The notes under the pieces: model-generated
Seen by the model: the letters and a program-made list of their open reading frames with translations, nothing else
Told to the model about the DNA's origin: nothing
Database searches by the model: none
Program-made: the position numbers and the translations under genes
DNA from: Candidatus Woesearchaeota archaeon
GTDB taxonomy: Archaea; Nanobdellota; Nanobdellia; Woesearchaeales; UBA10216
Assembly (NCBI GenBank): GCA_013331515.1
Contig: DUGG01000018.1
Location: 1 to 13,097 of the forward strand
Length of the DNA stretch: 13,097 nucleotides
Direction: 5' to 3'
Shown: positions 187-13,097 of the stretch, in pieces
Layout: every line of letters starts with the position of its first letter
How positions within the stretch are numbered: position 1 is the stretch's first letter

Positions 187-194
187 GGGCGGGC

Positions 195-278
195 GCAAAG
201 AAGTCACATTCACCAACTAGGTGAGCTTTCTTTGCCTTCATTTACCACCCCCAACAACCAACAATGAAGGCAAAAAAA
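195..278. repeat. Overlapping inverted repeats after ftsZ
   Basis: A perfect 12-bp inverted repeat pairs 231-242 (TTTGCCTTCATT) with 263-274 around a 20-nt C/A-rich loop. Allowing one mismatch it extends outward to about 227-278. The left arm also contains TTCTTTGC (228-235), which can instead pair with GCAAAGAA at 195-202, with a small TCACC/GGTGA helix inside. The two folds exclude each other. Lying in the 3' region between convergent genes, it most likely marks transcript ends for one or both strands. Confidence 0.5.
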
Positions 279-285
279 GAACAGC

Positions 286-338
286 GTCCTCAAGCGCAGG
301 CTTGGGGACCTTTTTCTTTTTTCCGTTTTTTGTTCACT
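286..338 (+). terminator. Hairpin plus U-tract terminator of ftsZ
   Basis: A 10-bp stem (286-295 with 300-309, one G-T wobble) with a GCAG loop is followed by two T-runs within 311-337. U-tracts are the main termination signal in archaea. On the opposite strand, a T7 tract at about 354-360 can end rio1 transcripts. Confidence 0.7.
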
Positions 339-391
339 TCTGGCGACGAGGAAATAAAAAAAGTATTGTTTGCCGTTGACTTCTATGAAAT

Positions 392-1114: not shown

Positions 1115-1138
1115 GGCAGAAGAGGAAAATGCGCGCCC

Positions 1139-1146
1139 CTTTAAAG
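1139..1146 (-). promoter_or_regulatory. TATA box of rio1
   Basis: CTTTAAAG (minus strand) is centred about 28 nt upstream of the rio1 ATG at 1114. It overlaps the stop codon of the upstream gene. Confidence 0.6.
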
Positions 1147-1824
1147 AGCTTTTTGATTGCCAGCCACCCAAATACTGCCTTGTGCAAACCCGTTCAAGTA
1201 CTGGTCCATGTAACTTTGGTGGATCTTGCCTTCACTGAGATTTGAGAGACATTCGTCACGTGTGGAGATGCCATACAGGCAGTTTGCCGTGATAACAACC
1301 TGCAGGAGGCCGCGAATGGCTATGCTCCTGTATGCTTGGCGTGCATCTACACCAGGCTTCTTTGTGAGTTCCATGGCAAGACGGGTCCCTTCCACCGGTC
1401 CGCAATCTTCAAGCGGGGTCCTGACAAGGGCGTTGTATGCCTTCGCAAATGCGGACAGCTCCTGATGTTGTTGCGGTGCAAGTGCATCAAGTTTAGCATT
1501 GTGGCTTATGTCCCTGTCATCGCTTTCAATTAGATGGGTAAGGAGATTCCTGTTGGTTTCCCCAAACGAATCGAGCGCAGCCTGCACCCGGGCATACAAA
1601 CCAATGTCCATGGCCCTCAGCAGATAGGGCTTTAACGCGCCATCCCTGTCTGCCATAGGCCCATAAATCATTGTGAACGGAATTTGAAACAGGTTGGGCG
1701 AAAATTCCGTCTTTCCATCAAAGCCCAGGGTTGTTCTCAGGCCTTCAAGATAAAACTGCTTTCTAGTCAGGAATGTGTCAATTATGTCAGCAGGCGTTAT
1801 CGTCAGCTCAAGTTCACTTGTCAC
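1141..1824 (-). CDS. Unrecognised 227-aa protein, leaderless GTG start
   Basis: I do not recognise this protein. It is soluble-looking and mostly helical, with no signal peptide, no clear membrane span and no catalytic motif I can name. Its middle is rich in Ala, Leu, Asp and Gln (for example DALAPQQHQELSAFAKAYNAL), and the last third includes AIRGLLQVVITANCLYGI, the most hydrophobic stretch. The frame is open upstream to 1890, but that part contains the promoter: TTTAAATA at 1847-1854 lies 26-27 nt before GTG at 1824. GTG 1824 is therefore the likely start of a leaderless mRNA. The gene sits just upstream of rio1 on the same strand. Its promoter is the 15-mer shared with two other genes of the window. 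It is probably a lineage-specific gene; function unknown. Confidence 0.7.
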   Translation of the reverse strand: MTSELELTITPADIIDTFLTRKQFYLEGLRTTLGFDGKTEFSPNLFQIPFTMIYGPMADRDGALKPYLLRAMDIGLYARVQAALDSFGETNRNLLTHLIESDDRDISHNAKLDALAPQQHQELSAFAKAYNALVRTPLEDCGPVEGTRLAMELTKKPGVDARQAYRSIAIRGLLQVVITANCLYGISTRDECLSNLSEGKIHQSYMDQYLNGFAQGSIWVAGNQKAL

Positions 1825-1846
1825 GGGCGTGGAAAAACTGGCTGGG

Positions 1847-1861
1847 TATTTAAATCTTTCT
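1847..1861 (-). promoter_or_regulatory. Promoter 15-mer AGAAAGATTTAAATA (BRE/TATA), copy 1
   Basis: On the minus strand this reads AGAAAGATTTAAATA, a purine-rich BRE followed by a TATA box. It is centred about 26 nt upstream of the GTG at 1824. The same 15 bases occur at 7496-7510 and 11151-11165. Confidence 0.75.
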
Positions 1862-1901
1862 GTTATTACCACTATAAAGTGAATACTCAATCATACAAAA
1901 C

Positions 1902-1909
1902 TTTATTAA
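1902..1909 (+). promoter_or_regulatory. Candidate TATA box of the intergenic RNA
   Basis: TTTATTAA on the plus strand lies about 26 nt upstream of 1931-1932, where the structured G+C-rich segment begins. The flanking sequence is strongly A+T-rich. The sequence is near-palindromic, so direction is not certain. Confidence 0.4.
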
Positions 1910-1930
1910 TAAGCTTACTACTCTTGCACC

Positions 1931-2146
1931 TACGTATTCAACGAGAGTGCGTATTTCGGTCCTTTTGTGACGGGGCTGAGTCAGCCTTGGATGAAGCAAG
2001 CCCACGTCGACAAAGGTCGACGGGGCCCGGTCGCAGCAGCGGCTTGGGAGCCACAATACGCATTCGGCCCGATACAGAGTTACCCGGACAAGCTTGCCCA
2101 ATTGGCTGGCTAGGAATCCGGGCGTTAGTGTCGGGACACACTTTTT
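1931..2146 (+). ncRNA. Candidate structured non-coding RNA, family not recognised
   Basis: The 530 nt between the promoter at 1847-1861 and dnaG hold no convincing protein gene. A G+C-rich, structured block of about 215 nt sits here between A+T-rich flanks. Helices seen are: an 11-bp long-range helix, 1945-1955 (GAGTGCGTATT) with 2055-2065, one G-T wobble; within it a hairpin 2000-2026 with GCCC, a bulged A and CGTCGAC around an AAAG loop; then CCCGGA 2083-2088 with TCCGGG 2117-2122 enclosing a smaller stem; and a 3'-terminal GTGT/ACAC stem at 2128-2139 followed by T5 at 2142-2146. Nested stems, a candidate TATA box 26 nt upstream and a terminal stem with a U-tract suggest an RNA gene read to the right. 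I looked for the RNase P (GAGGAAAGUCC-like), SRP helix 8 (GGAAG/AGCAGCC) and 5S or tRNA signatures and did not find them. It may be a divergent form of one of these or something lineage-specific. Confidence 0.45.
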
Positions 2147-2384
2147 ATCATTCATGATCAAGCAACCCGGTGATTAACGGGACAATAACGCGAAGATTAA
2201 AGGCACAAAGTGCCAGGACAGTAACGAGCACAACTACCATAACGGCGGCAAGCTGATATATCATTCACATTCCAACAAAGTTGGTTTATTTTGACAGTGG
2301 CATATCGGCTAATTAGGCCACAGCCAAAACACAGTTGTGACTTGTTCTAAGCTGGTGGCGTGCTAGGCATGAGGCGATTTGAAA
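2147..2384. other. Remainder of the dnaG upstream region
   Basis: No coding sequence is seen here. There are small perfect hairpins: CCCG/CGGG (2166-2181), GGCAC-AAA-GTGCC (2202-2214) and CCAAC-AAA-GTTGG (2272-2284). The last is followed by TTTATTTT (2285-2292), which could be a terminator of upstream RNA or the TATA box of dnaG, giving a leader of about 70 nt. The leader ends with a ribosome site before dnaG. Confidence 0.4.
2373..2378 (+). promoter_or_regulatory. Ribosome binding site of dnaG
   Basis: GGCGAT within GAGGCGAT matches the archaeal anti-Shine-Dalgarno (GGAGGTGAT) apart from one transition. It lies 6 nt before ATG 2385. This favours ATG 2385 over the in-frame TTG at 2379. Confidence 0.6.
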
Positions 2385-3770
2385 ATGGGAAAGATTAGTC
2401 CAGTATCGGCAAAGTACATAGTGCATACTACCATCCAGATAGATGGCGTGGTTGACAAGCCAGACGTGATTGGCGCCATATTCGGCCAGACAGAAGGGCT
2501 TCTCGGCGCAGACCTTGAATTGAGGGAGTTGCAAAGGTCTGGCAAGATAGGAAGGATAGAGGTCAATACAGAGATAAAGACAGGGAAGACATCAGGCTCA
2601 ATAATCATCCCTTCTTCGCTTGACAAGGCAGAAACAGCCATAATAGCCGCCGCCCTTGAGATAATACAGCGCATCGGACCCTGCAACGCAAGGGTGAAGG
2701 TTGAAAGCATAGAGGATGTCAGGGTCAGCAAAAGAAGCTATGTAATTGACCGCGCCAAGGAACTTCTTAAGACCATGATTGATACCGTGATGCCAGACTC
2801 CGGAGAGCTTGCTGAAGAGGTTTCAAAGGCGGTGAGAGTCATGGAAGTACAGGAATACGGTGCTGACCGGCTGCCAGCAGGCCCTGCAATAGATGAAAGC
2901 GAGGAAGTCATAGTGGTTGAAGGTAGGGCTGATGTAATGAACCTGCTTAAACACGGATTCAAGAACGTCATAGGCATGAACGGAACATCAGTTCCACCTT
3001 CCATATCCGAGCTGAGCAAGAAGAAAGTTCTTACAGCGTTTGTTGACGGTGACCGTGGAGGCGACCTTATCCTCAAGGAGTTGATAGATGTTGCGGAGGT
3101 TGATTACGTTACAAAAGCCCCTGATGGCAAGGAAGTGGAAGAGCTTGAGAAGAAGGAAATCCACAAGGCCCTCAGGTCAAGGGTTGTCCCTGAGCAGCTC
3201 AGGCTAGAGAGGCAGGAAAGGATTGAAAGGCAGGAACGAAACGAGCGCGAGACGCTGGCGCAACAGCCACAGCCAGGGGAGTTCAGGTATAAGGAGCCCC
3301 TGAAGCAGGAGAGGCCCCCGCAGCAGTTTGCAGGCGGCCCGTCAATCCCTGGAGTTGTTAACAGGCGGCCACAGGTTGTGCCCGGAAGACGGCCAATGAC
3401 TAGAGAGCAAAGGTTTGAGCGCGAACCGCGATTTGAGCAGCAGGAGCAAATGGAGCAGCCACGCGAGCCTAAACAGCTTTCTCAAAATGAGAAGAGCATA
3501 TTCAGGGAAATATCCGGAGCGCTAATAGGCACAAGGGGTGCTTACCTCTTTGACGAAAAGCTCAATGTGCTGGGCAAAGTCCCGCTGGCTGAACTGTCAT
3601 CAACCTTGCGAAGCCTGAACAATGTCTATGCCTTGGTTCTGGACGGGACAGTGGACAGGGAGTTGGCAAAGACGGCAGAACTGGCCGGAGTCAGGTGCAT
3701 AGTGGCCATGGACTCGGCCATACGGCCTGAAGAGACCAGAATGACAATCGCGACAATCAGCGAGTTGTAA
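2385..3770 (+). CDS. dnaG: Archaeal DnaG-like primase (Toprim protein)
   Basis: This 461-aa protein belongs to the archaeal DnaG family, Toprim-fold proteins that have RNA primase activity and associate with the RNA exosome through Csl4. The family N-terminus (GKISPVSAKYIVHTTIQIDG, residues 2-21) is followed by an alpha/beta region and the Toprim domain: VIVVEGRADV with catalytic E179, and AFVDGDRGGD with D221 and D223. Residues from about 265 to 365 form a Gln/Glu/Arg/Pro-rich linker (RLERQERIERQERNER, then several PQ and FEREPRFEQQE stretches). This linker is longer and more repetitive than I expect for the family and is probably disordered. The conserved C-terminal domain follows (FREISGALIGTRGAYLFDE onward), ending in ISEL. 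ATG 2385 is chosen because of the ribosome site six bases before it. Its stop faces that of the SurA-like gene across 16 nt. Confidence 0.95.
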   Translation: MGKISPVSAKYIVHTTIQIDGVVDKPDVIGAIFGQTEGLLGADLELRELQRSGKIGRIEVNTEIKTGKTSGSIIIPSSLDKAETAIIAAALEIIQRIGPCNARVKVESIEDVRVSKRSYVIDRAKELLKTMIDTVMPDSGELAEEVSKAVRVMEVQEYGADRLPAGPAIDESEEVIVVEGRADVMNLLKHGFKNVIGMNGTSVPPSISELSKKKVLTAFVDGDRGGDLILKELIDVAEVDYVTKAPDGKEVEELEKKEIHKALRSRVVPEQLRLERQERIERQERNERETLAQQPQPGEFRYKEPLKQERPPQQFAGGPSIPGVVNRRPQVVPGRRPMTREQRFEREPRFEQQEQMEQPREPKQLSQNEKSIFREISGALIGTRGAYLFDEKLNVLGKVPLAELSSTLRSLNNVYALVLDGTVDRELAKTAELAGVRCIVAMDSAIRPEETRMTIATISEL

Positions 3771-3786
3771 GTTGCAAACAGAAACT

Positions 3787-4431
3787 TTACCGCGGCACCG
3801 ACACTATCAGCACGTCCGCCTCGTCTTTCAGTGCAGCTATGTAGCCATCCCTTGCGGCCTGCTGGCGCTGGGCAGTAAGCAAGTCAACAATACCCTTCTC
3901 CGCCTGCTCAATGGAGATCCCTCTTGAAGCAAAGATGCTGGAGTTGTAGACCGCTTCCACATCCTTCCGCTTAATAACGAAGTTTTTGGGCACCTTGGCA
4001 TCAAGCAGCTTGTCTATCTGAAGTTGCTTCCTGAGAGCCGATTTCACTTTTTCGGCAGAGACATTTGCGGTCGCTAGTTCAGTTTCGGTAACATTGTTTG
4101 CCGCAAGAAACTGTTCATACCCTGCTGCGGCCTCCTCATCACTAACTACGACACGTTCCTTGACCGATTCCCGATAGAGAATTTCCCTTTCAATGAGGAA
4201 GGACAGCGCATCAGCCTTTGTCAGCATCGCCTGCTGCTCAGGCGTAAGCGTTGAATACTCGGAATCCACTTCGTCAGCATAAACGCTCACCCCGTTGACA
4301 AACGCGGAAATCTCCCGCCTTTCATCAGCGTGGCCTGCCTCTCCGGGTTTTTCCGTGCATCCTGAGATGACCATGGCAGCCACAATGGTCAGTGCAAGAA
4401 CAGCCAAAGCAGGGTTCATGGGTTTTGCCAT
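3787..4431 (-). CDS. Lipoprotein with SurA N-terminal-like chaperone domain
   Basis: The 214-aa product starts with a lipoprotein signal: MAKPM, a hydrophobic run ALAVLALTIVAAMV and lipobox ISGC with C25, so it should be lipid-anchored outside the membrane. The rest resembles the SurA_N/PrsA chaperone fold. It opens with FVNGVSVYADEVDSEYS, then a helix LSFLIEREILYRESVKERVVVSDEEAA, an Asn/Ala-rich middle, and a helical C-terminal arm (KRKDVEAVYNSS and onward). No parvulin peptidyl-prolyl isomerase domain lies between the chaperone segments, so a holdase role at the cell surface is the likeliest reading. ATG 4431 is chosen because it lies 26 nt from the TTTAAA at 4454-4459; the upstream in-frame TTG at 4443 is too close to the box. 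The gene is divergent from the pilin-like operon and might assist export of those proteins (inference). Confidence 0.75.
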   Translation of the reverse strand: MAKPMNPALAVLALTIVAAMVISGCTEKPGEAGHADERREISAFVNGVSVYADEVDSEYSTLTPEQQAMLTKADALSFLIEREILYRESVKERVVVSDEEAAAGYEQFLAANNVTETELATANVSAEKVKSALRKQLQIDKLLDAKVPKNFVIKRKDVEAVYNSSIFASRGISIEQAEKGIVDLLTAQRQQAARDGYIAALKDEADVLIVSVPR

Positions 4432-4453
4432 GCAATGGCGCAATCCCGCAACC

Positions 4454-4461
4454 TTTAAATA
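4454..4461. promoter_or_regulatory. Shared TATA element between divergent genes
   Basis: TTTAAATA (plus strand) is centred about 28 nt before ATG 4486. The palindromic TTTAAA in it is also about 26 nt before ATG 4431 on the minus strand. One box appears to serve both leaderless genes, so their transcription may be mutually exclusive at any moment. Confidence 0.6.
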
Positions 4462-4485
4462 ATTTCCGAATGGCAGTGCATAAAT

Positions 4486-5772
4486 ATGGGAAAGAGGCGC
4501 ATGCTGAAGTCTAGGAAGGCAATTGCCATGGACCTTGACTGGATAATAAGCCTGGGGCTTTTCCTCATCTATCTAGGCGTGTTCTTCATCGTCATAAGAC
4601 AGCTTCCAGCCCAGCAGAGCGGGGCGGGCGCTTTGCTTGCACGGGTGAGCGACGGGGTGGAAGAACAAGCGGCGTGGAGCGTGCAAAAGCTTCCTTTGTT
4701 TATCTTTTCAAACATGTCCGGGGCAGAGCCGATTATAGTGCGTTTTGGGCAGGATTGGCGGAACTTCTCATTCACGGACAACACAAGCTTTGATCAGCAG
4801 GACGGCAAGCTGATACTCGTGGCAACGCTCAAGGAAGGCGGGAACATGCTTGAGCTGGTTTCTTCAGGAGAGAATTACAGCCAGCCGGTGCCGGTGTTTG
4901 ACCTGGCGGCTGGCCAAAACTCGGCTTCCGTGAACTCACAACGGTTTGTTGCCGAGTTTGCCGGTTCAATGCTTGCCAGGGTTAACCACTTTGACCGGGA
5001 AAGGTTGAGCGACTTCAACATAAGCCTGGCCGGAACCGCACTAAAACCAGAAACAGCGGCAGCCGAAGCAAATGTTTCACAACTGTCAGCAAAGTACAAG
5101 CTCGCCTTTTCCCAGCTAAACCATTCCCAATTCGTGGTTGCCGGATACTCCAGAATAATAAGCTACGTGAATGCCGCCATTGGAGAACAGCACAACATGA
5201 CAGTCACTATGACGCTGCGCAACTACACTTTCTTTCACATAAACAACGCCGTGGCAGGAACAATCAACTACACAGGCAACCAGTGCCAGACTGCCCTCTC
5301 AAGATATGCGGACTTTTACGATTCAACAAGCGGGGTTACGCTTATCGCTCCGGAAGGGGCTAATGTCAGCTTCTGCGCTGCCAACGAAACAGTCCGGTTC
5401 GGGATGGAATTTTCCATTGAAAACGAAACACGCTATGAACTGATATTCCACATGGGTGACTTCAACGGCACGCTTAAGCAGGTCTCACCATACAAGACCG
5501 CTTTTGGAATGGTGGAAAACTTCACTGGCATATCCCTGGGTCTATATCGGAAGGTGAATGAAACAGGATATGCAACACTCAAGAGCAAATGGAATTACCC
5601 TGCCGCGAGGGATTTTGCTTTTACCCTGCTCAACCAGAGCGGTTCGGTGGTGTTCAATTACCAACCAAAAATCCCAGGTTCAACCAACGTCTTCACTCGT
5701 GAGACAGAGGTTTTCACCCTTGACAAGTACGGCCAGAAAGCCAAGCACAAGCTCAGGGTGAGAGGATGGTAG
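4486..5772 (+). CDS. Large membrane-anchored extracellular protein with pilin-like N-terminus
   Basis: The 428-aa product has a basic start (MGKRRMLKSRKA), then a single hydrophobic helix at about residues 17-38 (MDLDWIISLGLFLIYLGVFF), followed by an all-extracellular domain. The arrangement resembles archaeal class III (type IV pilin-like) signal sequences, and a cleavage site might lie around RKA/IAMD. The exported part is rich in beta-type sequence and carries 17 N-X-S/T sequons, so heavy N-glycosylation at the surface is likely. There are only two cysteines in its middle (NQCQTA and SFCAAN), a possible disulfide. It overlaps the next gene by 7 nt, so the two are translated from one message. 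No enzyme motif is seen. I call it a pilus or cell-envelope component; the exact role is unknown. The start fits the TATA box at 4454-4461. Confidence 0.7.
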   Translation: MGKRRMLKSRKAIAMDLDWIISLGLFLIYLGVFFIVIRQLPAQQSGAGALLARVSDGVEEQAAWSVQKLPLFIFSNMSGAEPIIVRFGQDWRNFSFTDNTSFDQQDGKLILVATLKEGGNMLELVSSGENYSQPVPVFDLAAGQNSASVNSQRFVAEFAGSMLARVNHFDRERLSDFNISLAGTALKPETAAAEANVSQLSAKYKLAFSQLNHSQFVVAGYSRIISYVNAAIGEQHNMTVTMTLRNYTFFHINNAVAGTINYTGNQCQTALSRYADFYDSTSGVTLIAPEGANVSFCAANETVRFGMEFSIENETRYELIFHMGDFNGTLKQVSPYKTAFGMVENFTGISLGLYRKVNETGYATLKSKWNYPAARDFAFTLLNQSGSVVFNYQPKIPGSTNVFTRETEVFTLDKYGQKAKHKLRVRGW

Positions 5773-6146
5773 GGAAGCAGGCAGTGTTCAGGACGCTTGA
5801 AGCGCTCGTGGCAATATTTATCACGTTCCTCTTCCTGCTTGTTTTCATACCCCAGCAGCGCGAGCAGTCCTTCCAGCAGCCACCGGCAAACGTGCTCGCA
5901 GGGCTAAGGAACAATGATGAATTTAGGAACTGCATCCTGCAAAAGAACAGCACATGCATTAACCAGAGCATAGAGCGACAGCTTGAGGACAAGTACGACT
6001 TCAAGTTCAACATATCTGGCAACCCAAGGGAGCCGCCGCCCCAGCTTCCTCAGAAAAGGGTATATACCAACGCATTCCTCATAGCCGGAAACACGACGAA
6101 CGTCACGAATACGGCAGTGCGGCTCTACTTCTGGGAGAAAAGATGA
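5766..6146 (+). CDS. Small pilin-like surface protein
   Basis: This 126-aa protein begins MVGKQAVFRTLEALVAIFITF, and the hydrophobic helix runs to about residue 28 (FLFLLVF). A glutamate (E12) at the head of the helix recalls the conserved Glu5 of type IV pilins. The rest is extracellular with five N-X-S/T sequons and two cysteines (NCILQ, STCIN) eleven residues... apart in the loop after the helix, a possible disulfide. Proline-rich PREPPPQLPQ divides it. ATG 5766 overlaps the stop of the upstream gene by 7 nt, with a GGTGAGAGG ribosome-like stretch directly before it, so translation is likely coupled. It is probably a minor pilin or partner of the 428-aa protein; a specific filament type cannot be named. 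Its stop faces the 90-aa gene across 10 nt. Confidence 0.7.
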   Translation: MVGKQAVFRTLEALVAIFITFLFLLVFIPQQREQSFQQPPANVLAGLRNNDEFRNCILQKNSTCINQSIERQLEDKYDFKFNISGNPREPPPQLPQKRVYTNAFLIAGNTTNVTNTAVRLYFWEKR

Positions 6147-6156
6147 TGAATCCTGC

Positions 6157-6429
6157 TCAATAGGGCACTACTTTCATATTATCATCGTCACTGTTCCTGC
6201 CGCCTTCGTCACCGGCTTTGTCAATGAAATCATTGACATCGGTGCCTCCGCCGAGCTGCTGTTGCTCTGATGTCGGCGAATCCGGGTTGCCAAACATGTC
6301 AAACAAGCCCTCACCGGAAGCCGGAGGGGTGCGCTCAGCAGCAGATTCGCCAATCAGCGCCAGAAGCATCTTAATCAGCTTGCGAATATCTTCAGGAGAG
6401 TCCTCTCTTGTGTCTATGCTTATCTTCAT
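6157..6429 (-). CDS. Small acidic protein of a DPANN-type family (90 aa)
   Basis: The product has two parts. Residues 1-27 (MKISIDTREDSPEDIRKLIK and MLLALIG) form a beta strand and an amphipathic helix. This beginning looks like a short domain I associate with small proteins of DPANN archaea. The remainder is low in hydrophobics, rich in Gly/Ser/Asp/Pro, contains GLFDMFGNP, and ends with DDDNMKVVPY; it is probably disordered. No enzymatic motif is visible. It lies 7 nt downstream of the methyltransferase-like gene on the same strand, with AAGGTAAGGA just before its ATG as a probable ribosome site inside the upstream gene's end. The two are therefore one operon. A helper or adaptor role for its neighbour is possible but unproven. 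Confidence 0.75.
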   Translation of the reverse strand: MKISIDTREDSPEDIRKLIKMLLALIGESAAERTPPASGEGLFDMFGNPDSPTSEQQQLGGGTDVNDFIDKAGDEGGRNSDDDNMKVVPY

Positions 6430-6436
6430 GCATTCC

Positions 6437-7474
6437 TTACCTTTGAAACAGGTTTATTAACCTTTGTACAAGTCCTGTGCCGGACGCGCCTGTGGCTGGC
6501 GGCTGCGAATCAAACCTTGCGTAAACAGCATCAATCCGCCCAAGCGGAACATCCCACCCGGTTATTGTCCTGATAAACTTTTTGTCATAACCCGCTTCGT
6601 AAACAGCGCGCTTGGAAGAGAAAAGCGCCGAGTCGTCAGAAAGCAACCCTGATACCGGTCCAAACCCCGTGCCATCAAGCTGCTCGTTCACGCTTTCTTT
6701 TGAAACTCCGACAAGCACAATCCCTGAAGCTCCAATCTTCGAAAGCGCCTCTGCATTGCGCAGCGAGAAACGCTTCTCGGCAGGAAGCTGGTCGGTAGAA
6801 AAACCAGCGCCATGATAAGCATACCTTGATGAAACGACAAGGATTCCGCCCTGCGGCGCAAGCACACTGGCGCAATTTTGCAGGACTTTCTCCTTGTTCC
6901 CTTGCATCAGCCTGTATAGCTCTTCATGCACCGGCTCGTCCAAAGAGCGTGACATTTCCAACCTCCTGTGCAGGTCAGGGTAATCCTTCCTGACCCGGAA
7001 CTCGCCCATTTCCCCTCCGCCAATGGCAAAGTTGTACCCCCCGCTATCAAAGCTGCCCCACATCACGACCATGCCAAACCTCAGGCCGTTAAGCTGAGAG
7101 TCAGGATGAAGCAAATCCTCAATGCTGCCGCCAAATGTTTTAAGCCCGTCACGCTCTGCTGCAAAGAACGGTGGTTCCTCAGCGTGTTCAGAATTGTACT
7201 GCCAGCTGATCTGGCTGTCAAGCCCAAATGTGGTCGCGCCCAGGTGGCGCAAACCTGCTGAAACGGCCAGGTTGGCACCGTAGCCGACATCAAGCGTGTT
7301 CTTCCCACGGACACCGCCTAAAAGCCCGGCAAGTTTTTCGGTTGCGGTAGCAATTCTTTCGTCGTCGTGAAAGAAGCCTTCTGTGCTCTGGTAGCTGTTC
7401 GGGTTCCATCTGGCAATGGTGAGCTTTCCCGGGAAAGGGTTGCCTCCATTTTCGTCAATGAACTTAAGCTCCAT
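6437..7474 (-). CDS. Class I SAM-dependent methyltransferase-like protein (345 aa)
   Basis: A Rossmann-type SAM-binding signature is visible: LDVGYGAN (L61-N68) as motif I, in which the third glycine of the usual GxGxG is replaced by Asn, then 18 residues on GLDS (D86) as the acidic ribose-binding position. Later come GMVVMWGSF (a motif IV-like strand) and GGILVVSSRYAYHG (a motif V-like strand). The N-terminal FIDENGGNPFPGKLTIARWNP and a long C-terminal region (from about residue 230) are not recognised. The substrate is unknown. The start is well supported: ATG 7474 lies 25-26 nt from TTTAAATA at 7496-7503, typical for leaderless mRNA. It forms an operon with the 90-aa gene downstream. Its promoter carries the 15-mer shared with two other unrecognised genes. 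Confidence 0.72.
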   Translation of the reverse strand: MELKFIDENGGNPFPGKLTIARWNPNSYQSTEGFFHDDERIATATEKLAGLLGGVRGKNTLDVGYGANLAVSAGLRHLGATTFGLDSQISWQYNSEHAEEPPFFAAERDGLKTFGGSIEDLLHPDSQLNGLRFGMVVMWGSFDSGGYNFAIGGGEMGEFRVRKDYPDLHRRLEMSRSLDEPVHEELYRLMQGNKEKVLQNCASVLAPQGGILVVSSRYAYHGAGFSTDQLPAEKRFSLRNAEALSKIGASGIVLVGVSKESVNEQLDGTGFGPVSGLLSDDSALFSSKRAVYEAGYDKKFIRTITGWDVPLGRIDAVYARFDSQPPATGASGTGLVQRLINLFQR

Positions 7475-7495
7475 GAGTTTATTAATGAATAGTCC

Positions 7496-7510
7496 TATTT
7501 AAATCTTTCT
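7496..7510 (-). promoter_or_regulatory. Promoter 15-mer AGAAAGATTTAAATA, copy 2
   Basis: On the minus strand AGAAAGATTTAAATA lies 25-26 nt upstream of the ATG at 7474. It is identical to the elements at 1847-1861 and 11151-11165. Confidence 0.75.
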
Positions 7511-7588
7511 TTTTTAACTATTGGCTAGTGGTGAGTTGTTGCGTCCATGTTTTTTTGGAGTATGACACAAACGGTGATTGACGATAGC

Positions 7589-7621
7589 GCGGGGTGCAAT
7601 ATCCCGCACCAGACTTTTTTT
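7589..7621 (+). terminator. Orphan hairpin with T7 tract
   Basis: GCGGG (7589-7593) can pair with CCCGC (7603-7607), or GGTGC (7593-7597) with GCACC (7606-7610). Seven T follow at 7615-7621. No plus-strand gene lies upstream; the nearest is on the minus strand. It may end an unknown short plus-strand RNA starting near the TTTAAA at 7498-7503, though another T7 at 7550-7556 lies in between. Confidence 0.4.
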
Positions 7622-7667
7622 GGTAATTGTGAGCTGTCTTTTGGTACGGAAGGAAAAACGCAAAAGG

Positions 7668-7675
7668 ATTAAAAA
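7668..7675 (+). promoter_or_regulatory. TATA box of the archease operon
   Basis: ATTAAAAA is preceded by purine-rich CAAAAGG (a BRE-like stretch) and is centred about 27 nt before ATG 7699, so the mRNA is probably leaderless. Confidence 0.6.
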
Positions 7676-7678
7676 CCA

Positions 7679-7693
7679 GGGCAAGTTTTGCCC
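7679..7693. promoter_or_regulatory. Dyad between TATA box and archease start
   Basis: GGGCAA-GTT-TTGCCC is a perfect 6-bp dyad lying between the TATA box and the predicted start point. A protein bound here would block the transcription complex, so it is a candidate operator for the RNA-ligase operon. Confidence 0.4.
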
Positions 7694-7698
7694 CTTAA

Positions 7699-8133
7699 AT
7701 GAACAAATCCCAAAAGTATGAATACCTGCCCCACACCGCGGATGTCAAGTTCAAGGCATACGGAAAGACGCTGGAGGATGCATTCACCAATGCAGCCCTG
7801 GCGATGAGTGGCGTGATGGTGGAAACACGGAAGGTAAAGCCGAAAACTACCAAGAAAATCTTTGCAGGGGGAAATGACCTGGAATCGCTGCTGCAATGCT
7901 TCCTTGAGCAGTTCATAATACTCCTTGACACGGATAACTTCTTCCTTTCGGACATAAAAAAAATCACAATTAAAAAAGAAGGCGGCACTCACTTCCTGAT
8001 TGCGACCGTTGCCGGTGACGAGGCCAAGAACTATGAAACAATAGGGCCGCAGGTAAAGGCGTGCACATACAATGACATGTTCGTGAGGCAGGAAGGCGGG
8101 AAGTGGGTTGCACAGGTGGTGGTTGACATATGA
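7699..8133 (+). CDS. Archease, RtcB ligase activator
   Basis: The 144-aa product is archease. The family start is clear: KYEYLPHTADVKFKAYGKTLEDAF, with the metal-binding HTAD motif at H12-D15. The C-terminal KACTYNDMFVRQEGGKWVAQVVVDI, ending in an Asp-Ile pair, is also typical. Archease speeds guanylylation of the RNA ligase RtcB, allows multiple turnover and relaxes its NTP preference. RtcB joins tRNA and other exons after cutting by the splicing endonuclease. Here rtcB lies 784 nt downstream on the same strand, with an alpha/beta hydrolase gene between. The stop codon overlaps the ATG of the hydrolase (ATGA at 8130-8133), showing operon structure. The length is that of the family and all visible key residues are present. 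Confidence 0.95.
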   Translation: MNKSQKYEYLPHTADVKFKAYGKTLEDAFTNAALAMSGVMVETRKVKPKTTKKIFAGGNDLESLLQCFLEQFIILLDTDNFFLSDIKKITIKKEGGTHFLIATVAGDEAKNYETIGPQVKACTYNDMFVRQEGGKWVAQVVVDI

Positions 8134-8867
8134 AGCTGCAGAAGAAAACCGTGACGGTGGGGAAAAGCAAAGTCAGATACCTTCATGGGGGAAAGGGAAA
8201 GCCGATGCTTTACCTGCACGGTTGGCCAGCTGCTCCGCCAGTATACGGCAAATCCCTTGAAATACTGGCCGAGAATTTTACAGTTTATGCACCATACCTG
8301 TTTGACATGAAATGCAACACCATACAGGAAATTTCAGCCTGCGTGAAATCAATGGTCTCCCAGCTTGGCGTATCAGGGTGCGCTGCAGCAGGGATATCGT
8401 TCGGAGGAGCAGTCGCCGCAGCAGCGGCCATGGACAAGGAGACAATATCAAATCTGGTGCTCATAGGTCCAGCGGGGCTCCCAAGGCAGGCCTCTTTCGG
8501 AAAAATGCTAGTTAACCTGATAATGACATCAGCAAGGATGCTTGCACATGGGAAAACAAAGACAATTACGCACAGGATGTTATCCGTTGCCACATTCATT
8601 TCTCAGCTCAGGCAGTCTGAAACGCGCAGGCTTTTCAACGAGATAAGGAGCAGCAAAAACACACATGCCTGTTACATGTTTCAAGCAATACAAGTAGCAA
8701 CAACCATAATCTGGTGCATAAATGACGATGTCTTTCCATATTATAATGCGCCGATACTCCAAAACCTCATCAAAAACTCGAAGATGATTTCTGTCAAAGG
8801 CGACCATTACTGGGCAATGCACGAGCCGGTGCAGTTCGCCGAAATCGTCGCAAACGCGTTGAAATAA
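8130..8867 (+). CDS. Alpha/beta hydrolase fold protein
   Basis: This 245-aa soluble protein carries the alpha/beta hydrolase marks in order: oxyanion region LYLHGWPAAP (about residues 27-36), nucleophile elbow GISFGG with S90, the acid-loop INDDVFP (D199 or D200) and histidine KGDHYWAMHEP (H226). A complete Ser-Asp-His triad is therefore available. A helical cap lies between residues 115 and 190. The substrate cannot be told; esterase, thioesterase or lipase-like activity is possible. Its ATG overlaps the archease stop by 4 nt, so it is translated with archease and sits just before rtcB. No link of such hydrolases to RNA ligation is known to me. The close packing is a hint only. Confidence 0.88.
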   Translation: MKLQKKTVTVGKSKVRYLHGGKGKPMLYLHGWPAAPPVYGKSLEILAENFTVYAPYLFDMKCNTIQEISACVKSMVSQLGVSGCAAAGISFGGAVAAAAAMDKETISNLVLIGPAGLPRQASFGKMLVNLIMTSARMLAHGKTKTITHRMLSVATFISQLRQSETRRLFNEIRSSKNTHACYMFQAIQVATTIIWCINDDVFPYYNAPILQNLIKNSKMISVKGDHYWAMHEPVQFAEIVANALK

Positions 8868-8868
8868 C

Positions 8869-8876
8869 TTTTTAAA
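8869..8876 (+). promoter_or_regulatory. Possible internal TATA box for rtcB
   Basis: TTTTTAAA directly follows the hydrolase stop and would give a start point near 8899, at the edge of the ribosome site. rtcB may have its own promoter besides read-through from archease. Confidence 0.45.
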
Positions 8877-8898
8877 GCAATCACTGTAATCAAAGTAC

Positions 8899-8906
8899 GG
8901 AGGTGA
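8899..8906 (+). promoter_or_regulatory. Ribosome binding site of rtcB
   Basis: GGAGGTGA is a perfect match to the archaeal anti-Shine-Dalgarno, 10 nt before ATG 8917. The spacer 8907-8916 is a perfect 10-bp palindrome (AGCTTAAGCT). Confidence 0.75.
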
Positions 8907-8916
8907 AGCTTAAGCT

Positions 8917-10369
8917 ATGGAAATAAAGAAAGTCTCTGAATACGAGTGGGAAATACCTAAGCACGGCGGCATGCGAGTCCCTGCGAGAATCTTTGCATCA
9001 GAAAAACTGGTGAAAAAGATAGAGCAGGACAGGACTTTGGTGCAAGCGGCTAACGTAGCCCACTTAAAAGGGATACAGAGATACTCTTACGTCATGCCCG
9101 ACGCCCACGAAGGATACTAAACCAGCCACTGCTGGTTCAGCCTTTGACGGCTTTCCGATTGGAGGCGTCGCTGCATTTGACACGGAGGAAGGAATAATCT
9201 CTCCAGGCGGGATCGGTTACGACGTCAATTGTGGAGTCAGACTGGTTCGTACTGATTGGATAATCGGCGATATCAAGCCGAAGATAAAACAGCTTCTTGA
9301 CACGCTTTTCAATGAAGTGCCTTCAGGGGTTGGGAGAGGCGGGATAACAAGGCTTTCCGATTCTGAAATGCAGGAAATACTTGCCAAAGGAAGCAGGTGG
9401 AGCCTGGAACAGGGTTACGGCACAAAAGCAGATTTGGACGCCACAGAAGAGTACGGCTACATGAAGCAGGCAGATCCGCAATTCGTCTCCCACACTGCAG
9501 TTGCAAGAGGAAAGCCGCAGCTTGGAACCCTTGGAGCAGGCAATCACTTCCTGGAAATCCAGGCAGTTGATGCAATTTATGATGAGAAAACAGCAGCCGA
9601 ATTTGGCATAACCGGAAAGGGCCAGGTTACGGTGATGGTGCATTGCGGAAGCCGCGGGCTGGGCCACCAAATAGCTTCGGATTACATCCGTGAAATGGAA
9701 AAGGCATATGGTTTTGAAGGGCTGCCTGACAGGGAGTTGATAAACGCGCCATTCCAATCAGAGCTGGGCCAGAAATATTTCAAGGCAATGTGCGCTGGCA
9801 TGAACTATGCATTTGCAAACAGGCAAATGATAGTCCACTGGATAAGGGACAGCTTCAGGAAGATCATGGGCTCAGATGACGGGATGAGACAGGTGTATGA
9901 TGTCTGTCATAACATCGGCAAACTGGAGAAACACAAGGTTGATGGGGAAACAAAGGAGCTGTGCGTGCACAGGAAAGGTGCGACGAGAAGCTTCGGCCCT
10001 GGCAGGGAGGAAGTAAATGAAATCTACCGCTCAACAGGCCAGCCGGTATTCATTCCTGGAACCATGGGCACGGCAAGTTATGTGATGGTAGGAACAAACG
10101 AATCTGAGGAGAAAAGCTGGGGCTCAACCGCGCACGGGGCAGGCAGGGAGATGTCAAGGGCTGAAGCCATACATCGGTTCAGGGGGGAAACGGTTGCAAA
10201 GGAGCTGGAGCAACGGGGCATACTGGTGAAGGCGGCAAGCTGGAAAGGCATAGCAGAGGAGCATGTGCCAGCATACAAGGACGTTGACGAGGTTTGCAGG
10301 GTTTCCAACGAGGCAAAGCTCGGGAAGCTGGTTGCACGGTTAGTGCCGCTTGGCGTTGTAAAAGGATAA
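8917..10369 (+). CDS. rtcB: RNA-splicing ligase RtcB, interrupted by a 31-nt BHB intron (exons 8917-9115 and 9147-10369)
   Basis: RtcB is the GTP- and Mn-dependent ligase that joins 2',3'-cyclic phosphate to 5'-OH RNA ends, as made by the archaeal splicing endonuclease on tRNA. Exon 1 encodes residues 1-66 plus one base and ends in the invariant PDAHEGYG motif. Exon 2 resumes with GFPIGGVAAFD. The joined product is 473 aa, the usual family length. Metal and catalytic residues are all present: D92 and C95 in YDVNCGVRL, N199/H200 in GAGNHFLE, H232 in VMVHCGSRG, H321 in VCHNIG, and the guanylylated H386 in TAHGAGRE. Without removal of 9116-9146 translation would stop at TAA 9118-9120 after 67 residues. 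Exon 2 is a clean, fully conserved frame, which argues against decay. Alternative readings (a +1 frameshift adding ten residues, a sequencing error, a pseudogene) are less likely because the insert folds as a bulge-helix-bulge whose canonical cuts restore the frame exactly. Confidence 0.93.
9116..9146 (+). other. Bulge-helix-bulge intron in rtcB (31 nt, phase 1)
   Basis: The fold is made of these parts. Exon helix C9108-G9149 and G9109-C9148. Central 4-bp helix 9110-9113 (AAGG) with 9141-9144 (CCTT). 5' bulge 9114-9116 (ATA). Intron helix C9117-G9140, T9118-A9139, an A9119/C9138 mismatch, then seven pairs 9120-9126 with 9131-9137. Loop CACT at 9127-9130. 3' bulge 9145-9147 (TGA). This is the 3-4-3 substrate of the archaeal splicing endonuclease, which cuts after the second base of each bulge: after 9115 and after 9146. 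The joined exons read GGA TAC GGC, giving the family's Glu-Gly-Tyr-Gly. The split tyrosine codon makes it a phase-1 intron. The weak point is the exon helix, only two G-C pairs before an A/G mismatch. Confidence 0.88.
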
Positions 10370-10371
10370 TA

Positions 10372-10409
10372 GCGAATCTCGTTAATTATGGAACATTTGC
10401 GTGATTCGC
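10372..10409 (+). repeat. Inverted repeat after rtcB
   Basis: GCGAATC (10372-10378) pairs perfectly with GATTCGC (10403-10409) around a 24-nt loop, directly behind the rtcB stop. It probably belongs to the 3' end structure of the message. Confidence 0.4.
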
Positions 10410-10412
10410 CAA

Positions 10413-10459
10413 ATAGCAAATTGCAAGTAAAAAGTTCAAATATTTTTGCAATTTGCTAT
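10413..10459. terminator. 14-bp inverted repeat between convergent genes
   Basis: ATAGCAAATTGCAA (10413-10426) is perfectly mirrored at 10446-10459 around a 19-nt A/T-rich loop. It stands between the stops of rtcB (plus) and the phosphoesterase (minus) and so probably ends both transcripts. Confidence 0.6.
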
Positions 10460-10471
10460 AAGCACCTGAAG

Positions 10472-11074
10472 TTAAATCTCAATAACCTTTCCAACCTTGC
10501 TGACATTCAGGACCCTTGTTGTGCCAATCGTTTCTTCCAGGCCGGATGCCTCATGCACGTGGCTGCACAATAAAAGGTCCGGCTTGAGCATCTCAATTGC
10601 CTTAGTCACCCCGGAGCTGCCTTTAACAAACTCAGAAAATTGCTCCATCATTGACTCGGCAGGGTGGACGTGGGTGACCATTATCCTTTTCCTCGCGTCC
10701 TTGACATACTTGTGCGACTTGTACAGGTGATAGAAAATCTCATTTTCTGAAAGCTGGAACAGGCCAATGTTTGCGCCACCACAGCCGAATAATCCAACAT
10801 CCCCGTGCTTCAGGCCGTAACCATGGAGGTTGGTGGCTCCGTATTTCTTTGCGAGAAAATCGGCTGTAGCGACTGTTTCATGATTGCCCGGTACCAATGC
10901 CACCTTCCTGCCATTCTTCACAAAAGGGCCAAGTATGTTGTCAGTGCTCCTTTCCCCCAGAGTGAGGTCGCCGCAGAGCACAACCAGGTCAACATCCTCC
11001 ATTTCAGCTTGAACAGCCAGCGATTCAATCAGGGAGCTGTTGCTGTGTATGCAGCCGGCGGCAAGGATTTTCAT
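10472..11074 (-). CDS. Calcineurin-like metallophosphoesterase with altered first metal motif
   Basis: The 200-aa product has the metallophosphoesterase motifs in order: CIH (residues 8-10, in MKILAAGCIHSN), CGDLT (D36), PGNHE (N64, H65), THVHP and SHVHEA near the C-terminus. It would bind two metal ions and hydrolyse a phosphodiester or phosphomonoester; the substrate cannot be named. The first motif is normally DxH, and here the metal-binding Asp is Cys (C8), which could change metal choice or activity. All other ligands are kept. ATG 11074 is chosen because the TATA box TTTATATA (11098-11105) lies 27 nt upstream; the frame is open to an ATG at 11110 but that includes the box. The family relative is the YfcE/MJ0936 type (residue 1-200 fits that size). 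Confidence 0.87.
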   Translation of the reverse strand: MKILAAGCIHSNSSLIESLAVQAEMEDVDLVVLCGDLTLGERSTDNILGPFVKNGRKVALVPGNHETVATADFLAKKYGATNLHGYGLKHGDVGLFGCGGANIGLFQLSENEIFYHLYKSHKYVKDARKRIMVTHVHPAESMMEQFSEFVKGSSGVTKAIEMLKPDLLLCSHVHEASGLEETIGTTRVLNVSKVGKVIEI

Positions 11075-11097
11075 GAGGCAGGGCAAACGCGGACTAC

Positions 11098-11105
11098 TAT
11101 ATAAA
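11098..11105 (-). promoter_or_regulatory. TATA box of the phosphoesterase gene
   Basis: TTTATATA on the minus strand is centred about 27 nt before ATG 11074. It decides the start in favour of the leaderless ATG at 11074. Confidence 0.65.
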
Positions 11106-11150
11106 GCCATCGCCGCTCCAGCAAAATAGTTACTTTAAAGTGATAAAAAT

Positions 11151-11165
11151 AGAAAGATTTAAATA
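11151..11165 (+). promoter_or_regulatory. Promoter 15-mer AGAAAGATTTAAATA, copy 3
   Basis: It is identical to the elements at 1847-1861 and 7496-7510. Its TATA part is centred 26 nt upstream of GTG 11188. Confidence 0.75.
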
Positions 11166-11187
11166 TGGCTTGTGCACCCTCAAAGAT

Positions 11188-11964
11188 GTGGCTGTCAATT
11201 TACAATCTGATCCGCATGCAATTGCAGATTTTAACAACAGGGTAACAAGATTAAACAGGCTGGTTAATGCAAAAACCATCCTGGGAAATGACCTGGGAGA
11301 TGCCATCCTGCAGAACCATCCTGATCCCCTGTATGTTGTCATTGCCTTTGCGCACGCGGGAACTGAGGCCCAAACTGCATACTTGCCTGAAGCCGCCAAT
11401 CACCGCCGCATCATGCATTATCCGCTTTACGCCCTGATTGTAGGAAAACTGGATAAAGTTGATAGCACCGAGCATATCGCATTCTCGCCATTTGCCCGCA
11501 CAAATGAGCAAACTCTGTTTTTGTCTGATGCTTCAGTAAGCTTCCTTTCACCTGCTGCTTACTTGCGCGAGAACGAATTCTCCGTTGAACAGACCAGATA
11601 CATTAAGAACTTGAGGGATACTGTTCTTCACCAGCTCGGCATAGGTGTTGTCCGCTCTGAAAACAACAAGATAACAATCCCCACATCAGTTTCCCGGGTT
11701 GATTCACTTGCGCTTATTGTTAACAATCTCTTCAGGCCTTCCACTGCCGCCCTGATACAGGGAGCGGTTCCAGGTGACGTATCGTGGTATCTGCCAGTCG
11801 TAGGCCAACGCACTCAAAGAATGGGAAGGTCGGAAAAAGTTCCTGAAGCTGTTTTCACCGGAATGCCGCTCGGGTCATGGAGCATTTACTGCCTTTCGCA
11901 ATCACAATACAATCTGCTGCATAGTGCCAATCCACCTTCCAGATTAACCCAGTCTCTCTCCTAA
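11188..11964 (+). CDS. Unrecognised 258-aa protein, leaderless GTG start
   Basis: I do not recognise this protein. It has no signal peptide or membrane span. The first third is helical (IADFNNRVTRLNRLVNAKTI), followed by a more hydrophobic alpha/beta stretch (LYVVIAFAHAGTEAQTAYL, HYPLYALIVGKLDKV). The C-terminal part is rich in Ser, Gln and Asn and includes PGDVSWYLPVVGQ. No catalytic motif is evident. The open frame extends upstream to 11140, but that part contains the promoter element. GTG 11188 lies 26 nt after the TATA centre, as in the gene at 1141-1824, so it is the likely start. The gene is convergent with the TsaC/Sua5 gene, 30 nt apart. It is probably lineage-specific. Confidence 0.7.
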   Translation: MAVNLQSDPHAIADFNNRVTRLNRLVNAKTILGNDLGDAILQNHPDPLYVVIAFAHAGTEAQTAYLPEAANHRRIMHYPLYALIVGKLDKVDSTEHIAFSPFARTNEQTLFLSDASVSFLSPAAYLRENEFSVEQTRYIKNLRDTVLHQLGIGVVRSENNKITIPTSVSRVDSLALIVNNLFRPSTAALIQGAVPGDVSWYLPVVGQRTQRMGRSEKVPEAVFTGMPLGSWSIYCLSQSQYNLLHSANPPSRLTQSLS

Positions 11965-11994
11965 AAAGCGTTGGTTCTGATAAAGAAGCATCTC

Positions 11995-12567
11995 TTACCT
12001 TTCTACCAGCTCCACTTCCTTCTCAAATAGCTTCACGATGGTCGATGGCCTGCCCTCCTTTTCACCTTCGTAAACCATGAAGTCGACTTTTTGCCTGATA
12101 CTCTCGTCGAGGTCATCAATGGCTGTCATGTACTGCCGGCCTGTCAGATTGGCGGAAGTGCTAAGAACAGGAAAGCCAAGCTCCTTCACCAGATCTGAAA
12201 TCCAATGCCTTGGAATCCTAATTCCCAAAGTGCCGCTCCCAAGATTAACTGATGAAGCGATGGCAGATGCCTTTTTCAGGCGAAGTATGAGCGTGTATGG
12301 CCCAGGAAGCCGATCAAGCCACTTCTCTCCTTCAGCAGAAACTTCACAATTGTCATAAACCCACCGCTTTGACGGCGCAATCACTGAAAAAGGCATTGAA
12401 TTCCTTTGCTTGGCATCCCTCACCCTGCGGACAGCAGCTTCATTGGTTGCATCACAGCCAATGCCATAAATTGTATCTGTCGGATGGATGAAGACCGAGC
12501 CCTGGCTTATTAGTTTCAGATACCTGACTTTTTCCAATAGAAACTCCTCCTTTGTGATAACTTCCAC
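11995..12567 (-). CDS. YrdC-domain threonylcarbamoyl-AMP synthase (TsaC/Sua5 family)
   Basis: This enzyme makes L-threonylcarbamoyl-AMP from threonine, bicarbonate and ATP, the first step of the t6A37 modification of ANN-decoding tRNAs; the KEOPS complex completes it. The YrdC fold is evident: IHPTDTIYGIGCDA (residues 27-40), the KQRNSMPFSVI region with K53 and R55, PGPYTLIL, LGIRIPRH, and PVLSTSANLTG with S137. GRPSTIV follows near the end. At 190 aa it is the short, YrdC-only form, lacking the C-terminal Sua5 domain common in other archaea. The start is GTG 12567, which lies 26 nt from TTTATATA (12590-12597) and suits a leaderless mRNA. With rio1 and rtcB it belongs to the RNA/ribosome genes spread through this window. 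Confidence 0.92.
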   Translation of the reverse strand: MEVITKEEFLLEKVRYLKLISQGSVFIHPTDTIYGIGCDATNEAAVRRVRDAKQRNSMPFSVIAPSKRWVYDNCEVSAEGEKWLDRLPGPYTLILRLKKASAIASSVNLGSGTLGIRIPRHWISDLVKELGFPVLSTSANLTGRQYMTAIDDLDESIRQKVDFMVYEGEKEGRPSTIVKLFEKEVELVER

Positions 12568-12589
12568 AGGAAGCGGTTGTGCAATAAAC

Positions 12590-12597
12590 TATATAAA
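12590..12597 (-). promoter_or_regulatory. TATA box of the TsaC/Sua5 gene
   Basis: TTTATATA on the minus strand, centred about 26 nt before GTG 12567, supports a leaderless GTG start. Confidence 0.65.
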
Positions 12598-12641
12598 TTT
12601 TTCATAAAACCAGCCATTGGTTTCATATGGGAATGGAATGG

Positions 12642-12678
12642 TTGTTGCGGGAAGAAAAAGCCGGTGGCCCCGCAACAA
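12642..12678. repeat. 10-bp inverted repeat downstream of the 57-aa gene
   Basis: TTGTTGCGGG (12642-12651) pairs perfectly with CCCGCAACAA (12669-12678) around a 17-nt loop. No T-run follows on either strand, so it may be a 3' end stem or a processing site rather than a simple terminator. A smaller AAACCA/TGGTTT stem lies at about 12607-12623. Confidence 0.45.
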
Positions 12679-12686
12679 ATACTGGT

Positions 12687-12860
12687 TTACGCTTTTAGAA
12701 ATCCCAAGGTGGGTTGTAAATCTGGAATGCTGCGCACAAGCCTGAGCTCCAGCTTCCTGCCATCCTTCAACTCATTCAGCGCCCTTATGCTGAGCTCCTT
12801 CACATGCCTGAAAAACAGGTCACTTACCATCCCGGCGTTTAACTCAGTAGGCAAAGACAT
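12687..12860 (-). CDS. Unrecognised 57-aa protein with perfect ribosome site
   Basis: The product begins MSLPTELNAGMVSDLFFRHV and is mostly amphipathic helix with a mixed-charge middle (KELSIRALNELKDGRKLELR). It has no membrane span or known motif. Evidence for a real gene is the perfect GGAGGTGA at 12866-12873, five bases before ATG 12860. The box at 12940-12947 would give it a leader of about 57 nt. The GTG at 12875 is in frame but lies inside the ribosome site, so ATG 12860 is preferred. It stands between the TsaC/Sua5 gene (same strand, 119 nt downstream) and a divergent gene. It could be a complete small protein or the remnant of a larger one; function unknown. Confidence 0.6.
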   Translation of the reverse strand: MSLPTELNAGMVSDLFFRHVKELSIRALNELKDGRKLELRLVRSIPDLQPTLGFLKA

Positions 12861-12865
12861 ACAAA

Positions 12866-12873
12866 TCACCTCC
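12866..12873 (-). promoter_or_regulatory. Ribosome binding site of the 57-aa gene
   Basis: GGAGGTGA on the minus strand, five bases before ATG 12860, decides the start of the gene. Confidence 0.7.
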
Positions 12874-12939
12874 ACAACAGCAGCAACTGCGTGTATCCTT
12901 TCGCAGCAGCTATGCTATCCAGAATACGTCCCTCTTCTG

Positions 12940-12947
12940 TTTAAATA
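12940..12947. promoter_or_regulatory. TATA element between divergent genes at the right edge
   Basis: TTTAAATA on the plus strand is centred 25-26 nt before GTG 12969. Its palindromic TTTAAA could also drive the minus-strand 57-aa gene, with a longer leader. Confidence 0.55.
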
Positions 12948-12968
12948 CCCTGTCCGGGCGGTTGTCCA

Positions 12969-13097
12969 GTGGCCAGTGCAAACCAGCAGCCGGCAATTCT
13001 GCTCGTAGCGAAATGTGCAGTCATATCCGGCAGGACTTGCGATTTGGTCAAGTCTTGTAATGACTACTTGATAAGCAACGTCCGGGAATTGCTTGCG
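12969..13097 (+). CDS. Unrecognised protein, N-terminal 43 codons (partial)
   Basis: From GTG 12969 the frame is open to the window edge. It begins (V/M)ASANQQPAILLVAKCAVIS and continues with GRTCDLVKSCNDYLISNVRE. It has a short hydrophobic strand ILLVAKCAVI, three cysteines, then a helix. The GTG lies 25-26 nt behind the TATA box at 12940-12947, the same geometry as the leaderless GTG genes at 1824, 11188 and 12567. That spacing is the main support for this start. The family cannot be told from so little. Confidence 0.55.
   Translation, partial: MASANQQPAILLVAKCAVISGRTCDLVKSCNDYLISNVRELLA

Follow-up and report, generated by a model that had tools for sequence, protein, structure and literature searches.

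The locus examined here raised the question of how an intact RNA ligase RtcB could be made from a gene whose reading frame stops inside a conserved motif and continues in another frame. The window, i.e., the whole stretch of DNA analysed, comprised 13,097 nt of Candidatus Woesearchaeota archaeon (GCA_013331515.1, contig DUGG01000018.1, positions 1-13,097 of the forward strand), an uncultured archaeon, and its host genome was 68% complete. Based on all analyses, it was concluded with a probability of about 0.9 that the gene is interrupted by a 31-nt predicted bulge-helix-bulge (BHB) intron, for which the tRNA-splicing endonuclease EndA is the likely cutting enzyme and RtcB itself the likely ligase. 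Such an intron had been claimed in the initial annotation, and at the level of sequence it appears well supported by the recurrence of the interruption in 33 genomes, the covariation of its helices, the mixed insert lengths modulo 3 and an empty site in a relative, G018.

The interrupted gene and the restored protein

The rtcB frame opened at ATG 8917 and ended at TAA 9118-9120, directly after PDAHEGY. The match to the PF01139 profile ended at profile position 26 at this stop and resumed at position 26 from 9149 in another frame, in agreement with the stop and the frame change that had been annotated at the same coordinates. The unjoined message would encode a 67-residue product. The longest rtcB frame in the list of open reading frames of the window was a 350-aa piece starting at GTG 9317, and gene finders would truncate such genes in the same manner. 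Two PF01139 matches were recorded in the genome, and these were the two exons of rtcB.

The excision of 9116-9146 (31 nt) resulted in an RtcB of 473 aa, the residues 3-473 of which were aligned with P. horikoshii RtcB (1uc2) at an E value of 7.2e-176. No gap was present at the junction, where VMPDAHEGYGFPIGGVAAFD of the joined window protein was aligned with VMPDGHQGYGFPIGGVAAFD of the P. horikoshii protein. The junction split a Tyr codon (GGA T^AC GGC) within the motif PDAHEGY^GFPIGG (PDxHxGYG). The canonical cuts had been annotated after 9115 and 9146, with joining there as the sole outcome that restores the motif. Joining there did restore the motif as GGA TAC GGC, but the frame alone fitted three junctions (9115/9147, 9116/9148 and 9117/9149), which, owing to a 2-nt repeat (AC), yielded an identical joined sequence, and it was the BHB that singled out 9115/9147 among them.

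Other kinds of intervening element were considered for the window as well. No Rfam family was matched at the gathering score anywhere in it, and a known self-splicing or other Rfam RNA was rejected on that ground. An intein was rejected since the insert was 31 nt only and contained an in-frame stop. The features of the window are collected in Table 1; the genes at 6437-7474 and 11140-11964 matched no Pfam family.

Table 1. Coordinates of the features of the rtcB locus and of other genes in the window
Feature	Position	Strand	Remark
RIO kinase family match	392-1171	-	Pfam
Toprim family match	2379-3770	+	Pfam
Archease gene (PF01951)	7699..8133	+	upstream of rtcB, same strand
Alpha/beta-hydrolase gene	8130..8867	+	between archease and rtcB
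rtcB exon 1	8917..9115	+	ATG to Tyr codon base 1, 66 codons + 1 nt; low dN vs high synonymous change
Central helix, 5' strand, 4 bp	9110..9113	+	pairs with 9141-9144, exon with intron
5' bulge	9114..9116	+	predicted cut after 9115
31-nt insert, predicted BHB intron	9116..9146	+	in-frame TAA 9118-9120 when retained
Intron hairpin	9117..9140	+	pairs 9117-9118/9139-9140 and 9120-9126/9131-9137; loop 9127-9130
Central helix, 3' strand	9141..9144	+	pairs with 9110-9113
3' bulge	9145..9147	+	predicted cut after 9146; partly paired in minimum-energy fold
rtcB exon 2	9147..10369	+	Tyr codon bases 2-3 to TAA; low dN vs high synonymous change
Sua5/YrdC family match	11995-12567	-	Pfam

Fold of the insert and its recurrence among relatives

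The 4-bp helix, the 3-nt bulges and the 9-pair intron helix described initially could all be formed at their annotated positions, the 4-bp central helix being flanked by a 3-nt bulge at each exon-intron border. The inner helix consisted of 2+7 pairs separated by a single A.C mismatch (9119/9138). The predicted cut between the second and third bulge residues would restore the RtcB family motif. Among 100,000 shuffles of the insert, 71 placed a canonical BHB on the junction that restores the frame.

The RNA 9095-9160 had a minimum free energy (MFE) of -21.1 kcal/mol (z -3.0). In this fold the 5' bulge and the central helix were kept, and the 3' bulge lost two bases to the pairs G9109.U9145 and C9108-G9146. 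The strict BHB with both bulges open was calculated at -17.6 kcal/mol, which was 3.5 above the MFE, so it was not the minimum-energy fold; the additional enforcement of a 2-bp outer helix gave -12.8 kcal/mol. For 48 introns, a set from which the 18-nt insert of G295 was left out, the cost of keeping both bulges open had a median of 0.85 kcal/mol and was at most 4 in 47. The same BHB geometry was formed by 17 structures on both strands of the window, the rtcB site included. The geometry alone is thus not rare; what decides is its coincidence with the reading frame, together with the comparative evidence.

The PF01139 profile was searched in 145 genomes, the window's own included, and was matched in at least 135. 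A chosen sample of 32 stretches, either broken-looking or belonging to the window's family, was taken for splice-aware alignment. The family comprised 19 genomes, 17 of which had a PF01139 match and were aligned; G002, G003, G004, G005 and G007 belonged to the same genus as the window's genome. The interruption at GY^G (site A) was present in eight family members (G000, G002, G003, G005, G007, G013, G016 and G017). G010, G011 and G018 carried no insert, the rtcB of G006 was cut by contig ends and that of G009 was damaged. After restriction to inserts of 25-40 nt located at or beyond residue 50, a canonical BHB was located on the frame-restoring junction in 13 of 13 family introns, counting site A together with a second site, B.

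A covariance model of site A was matched in 22 of the 352 genomes of the order and not in the other 330, and in 16 of 378 genomes drawn from the class, 11 of them new. The total reached 33 genomes, the window's own included, and the match was always located in rtcB at the same codon. Eight of these were the family loci, and each of the other 25 had an RtcB match in the locus. A frame-restoring insert at GY^G was tabulated in 32 of the 33, and G216 was judged by eye. In this wide tabulation, inserts outside 18-45 nt or outside the motif region were dropped, and, of the junctions whose protein products differed by no more than one residue, the one with the best BHB was taken.

The 32 tabulated inserts were 23-33 nt long, with lengths modulo 3 leaving a remainder of 1 in 14, 0 in 10 and 2 in 8. 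Every one of them, if kept, led to a stop within seven codons. All four pairs of the central helix were formed in 31 inserts and six or more inner-helix pairs in 28, and a 2-bp outer helix in only 13. The Tyr codon pre-existed in 8 inserts and was created only by joining in 24. The strict BHB test was passed by 30 of 43 inserts of the site-A genomes, sites other than A included, against 0.12 expected from shuffles in which the choice of the junction was repeated.

Some of the rtcB loci were incomplete in other respects. Those of G065, G422 and G527 were fragments or contained further frame breaks. The rtcB of G216 (L201) had lost about 24 codons between the two motifs, beside its intron, and that of G009 (L041) about 32 residues between the motifs and also had a frame break; a deletion or an assembly collapse may account for each.

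The same insert with compensatory changes, which had been named as a feature to look for in close relatives, was found, as the identical junction was broken in the 33 genomes and the helices covaried in 10 aligned site-A inserts. In this alignment 93.8% of the cells were paired compared to 79.0% after shuffling (0 of 500 shuffles as high), and 8 of 16 pairs were changed on both sides against a shuffled mean of 4.0 (5 of 500 as high). The covariation score was equal to 0.514 versus 0.221 for the shuffled sets (0 of 500 as high), and in slid registers 19-56% of the cells paired. Within the central helix, where exon pairs with intron, 2 of 4 pairs were changed on both sides in the 10 genomes. Site B alone, for which 321 of 5000 permutations scored as high, was not telling because it was too uniform.

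When site A was mapped on a tree of 68 RtcB proteins, 14 changes were required, at least 8 of them on well-supported branches, and the site was present in both of the groups separated by the midpoint root. This tree was built by a quick method from chosen rows, some of them partial, with G065, G422 and G527 left out, and its uninterrupted rows were mainly the best-scoring PF01139 matches and no random draw. An exact empty site was provided by G018, whose CACGAAGGATACGG equals the joined sequence of the window; G018 was intron-free, whereas its congeners G013 and G017 carried the intron. The distribution of site A may reflect either several independent gains at one codon or numerous losses of an old intron. 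The recurring use of identical codons bears on the origin and spread of BHB introns.

Splicing machinery and competing explanations

The window's genome contained one PF01974 (EndA) gene, located on G000:C30 and encoding 195 aa from its ATG, a size that suggests a homotetramer subunit. PF01974 was matched once each in 16 of the 18 genomes searched and not at all in two, and archease was also found in 16 of 18. Archease is described as an activator of RtcB (PMC3973293), and RtcB with archease as an archaeal tRNA-exon ligase (PMC3973293; PMC4090602). The ATP-dependent RNA ligase TIGR01209, the one ligase family searched besides RtcB, was matched in 0 of 18 genomes, and two control archaea were positive. 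The whole sequence of G016 (95% complete) contained a single rtcB locus with introns A and B both in it.

In the window's genome, ARAGORN predicted introns of 10-59 nt, some of them doubtful, in ten distinct tRNA genes (L096-L108). The strict BHB test was fitted by the intron of tRNA-Glu only. Hence, the host enzyme is perhaps less strict, or the ARAGORN predictions are imprecise.

We proposed that EndA would cut the rtcB mRNA after 9115 and 9146, and that RtcB with archease would join the exon ends, creating the Tyr codon T^AC. As neither a second rtcB nor a TIGR01209 ligase was found, every new message for RtcB would depend for its completion on RtcB already present, in a closed loop in which the output of RtcB would be coupled to the activities of RtcB and EndA. 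If true, such a loop would act as a positive feedback on the RtcB level. The closed loop is deduced from an absence and is weakened by the incompleteness of the genomes, as a second ligase could be missed in one that is 68% complete. A wider reading is considered probable, namely that the sole RNA ligase of many woesearchaeal and related archaea can be made only from mRNA which it has itself sealed. This would be an obligate self-templating loop in which the splicing competence is inherited as protein, and rtcB would be the best-marked case of minimal mRNA introns that recur at the same codons in a small number of conserved genes (rtcB, carB). With the splicing ligase itself encoded by the host gene, this would be a chicken-and-egg circuit.

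The interruption might also be read through without any cut in the RNA, by translational bypassing, in which the ribosome hops over the hairpin, or by programmed frameshifting. A hairpin beside a stop codon does resemble bypass elements such as that of phage T4 gene 60, and in the window the Tyr codon already exists ahead of joining, with the AC repeat at either end of the insert. However, in 24 of the 32 site-A inserts no Tyr codon exists until the exons are joined, and all three length classes modulo 3 occur, so that neither a hop nor a fixed shift would restore GYG throughout. Together with the covariation of the exon-intron pairs at the BHB, this renders a ribosomal explanation very improbable. 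A decayed gene or an assembly error is hardly credible, even though G216 and G009 lack a stretch between the motifs and three further loci are fragmentary or broken elsewhere, because the identical site is broken in 33 genomes and covaries. Moreover, in 7 comparisons dN was 0.04-0.25 and the synonymous change was high for either exon, which argues strongly that the rtcB with the insert is under purifying selection and is not a pseudogene.

The intron could be real and its exons joined by a ligase other than RtcB, in which case there would be no self-dependence. The single alternative family searched and the partial genome of the window leave some room for such an enzyme, but the empty TIGR01209 search with its positive controls, and the role described for RtcB with archease, make it rather unlikely. 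The resealing of a BHB intron by RtcB itself is the reading preferred here.

Other interruptions of rtcB and carB and their known parallels

Site B was located in the second motif, at GGIGY^DINCG, in five family genomes (G002, G007, G008, G014 and G016), and it was seen in eight genomes in all by the wide tabulation. A site-B covariance model was matched in 6 of the 352 genomes of the order, five of which were the known loci; the sixth match (G305, E 6.8e-4) had no RtcB match and was dropped. Further inserts were found at PDGH^W in G088, G137 and G063, with an imperfect central helix, at GFD^IN in G084 and G543, and in FDINC in G216, G271 and G397. The tabulated inserts fell in codons of the two motifs, that region being the one covered by the filter.

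A first search of G016 for BHBs that would join coding frames returned 247 candidates versus 497 with a decoy pairing and was uninformative, since the decoy gave more. A stricter scan of the same genome (1.43 Mb), run without a decoy and missing relaxed BHBs and introns of more than 90 nt, left 50 candidates. The eight best of the 50 by energy per length included both rtcB introns and one insert in carB, the gene of the carbamoyl-phosphate synthase large chain. The joined frames were inspected for 16 of the 50, and besides rtcB only carB looked convincing, by its motif.

The carB profile TIGR01369 was matched in 34 of 59 genomes; it had no match in the window's own genome (68% complete). Fifteen carB loci were aligned, G017 among them as the reference and four lying unread on the opposite strand. 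Hairpin inserts of 21-32 nt were found at two conserved motifs in six genomes, at GEAGE^FDxSG in G016, G012, G009, G007 and G036, and, in G007 and G027, at SGA^IKIG or one base further on, with G007 carrying both (L228, L229, L231 at G016:C1:530338-530358, L233, L240 and L245). By look, their folds were BHB-like. Among the aligned loci, carB of G010, G051 and G003 had no inserts, and that of G048 showed an alignment break near the start only. In G016:C1 the frame joined to carB reached about 400 residues further upstream, a part which by eye we take to be LAGLIDADG-like.

The closest known parallel is the BHB intron in the cbf5 pre-mRNA of Crenarchaeota, in which, according to PMC2738675, cleavage takes place between the second and the third residue of the bulge, and which was lost in some lineages. 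Both are BHB introns of a protein gene whose predicted cut lies between residues 2 and 3 of the bulge, and both show gain or loss among relatives. The cbf5 case differs in its gene and lineage, its mostly unconventional BHB, its hetero-oligomeric endonuclease and its partial cDNAs (PMC2738675), whereas the rtcB inserts are hairpins of 23-33 nt, up to two per gene, in the ligase's own gene, and are known here from sequence. As of 2020, only one additional archaeal BHB intron had been reported, in cbf5 mRNA, according to PMC7714728, which itself added a cut 5' UTR of Haloferax. The excerpted parts of an RtcB review (PMC10630183) name no rtcB intron, and no report of one was found in a search limited to excerpts of open-licence PMC articles. 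In the present case a further protein gene is broken recurrently at several sites, along with carB in some relatives; together, the rtcB and carB interruptions would make archaeal mRNA splicing less exceptional than thought.

The archaeal tRNA and rRNA BHB introns share the motif and likely the enzymes EndA and RtcB, but in rtcB it is an mRNA that carries the intron and a reading frame that results. The XBP1 mRNA of animals, as described in PMC10630183, is similar in its short 26-nt insert, in the frame shift upon its removal and in the joining of exons by RtcB. It is cut by IRE1 and not by EndA, its message does not code for RtcB, and no kinship is claimed.

The inteins of RtcB are found in the same gene and the same motifs, but they are removed as protein and are mostly 1.4-1.5 kb long versus about 30 nt for the rtcB inserts. 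The intein remark of the initial annotation held in kind, since large intein-like inserts were present in the fetched loci, in the two motifs that also carry the small introns. Inserts of 1.4-1.5 kb were located near site B in G004 and G015. By their ends, the inserts of 1.4-1.5 kb in the DxNC motif of rtcB at L035, L046 and L064, one of 0.4 kb in the same motif at L057 and a 1.5-kb insert in the first motif at L056 were intein-like.
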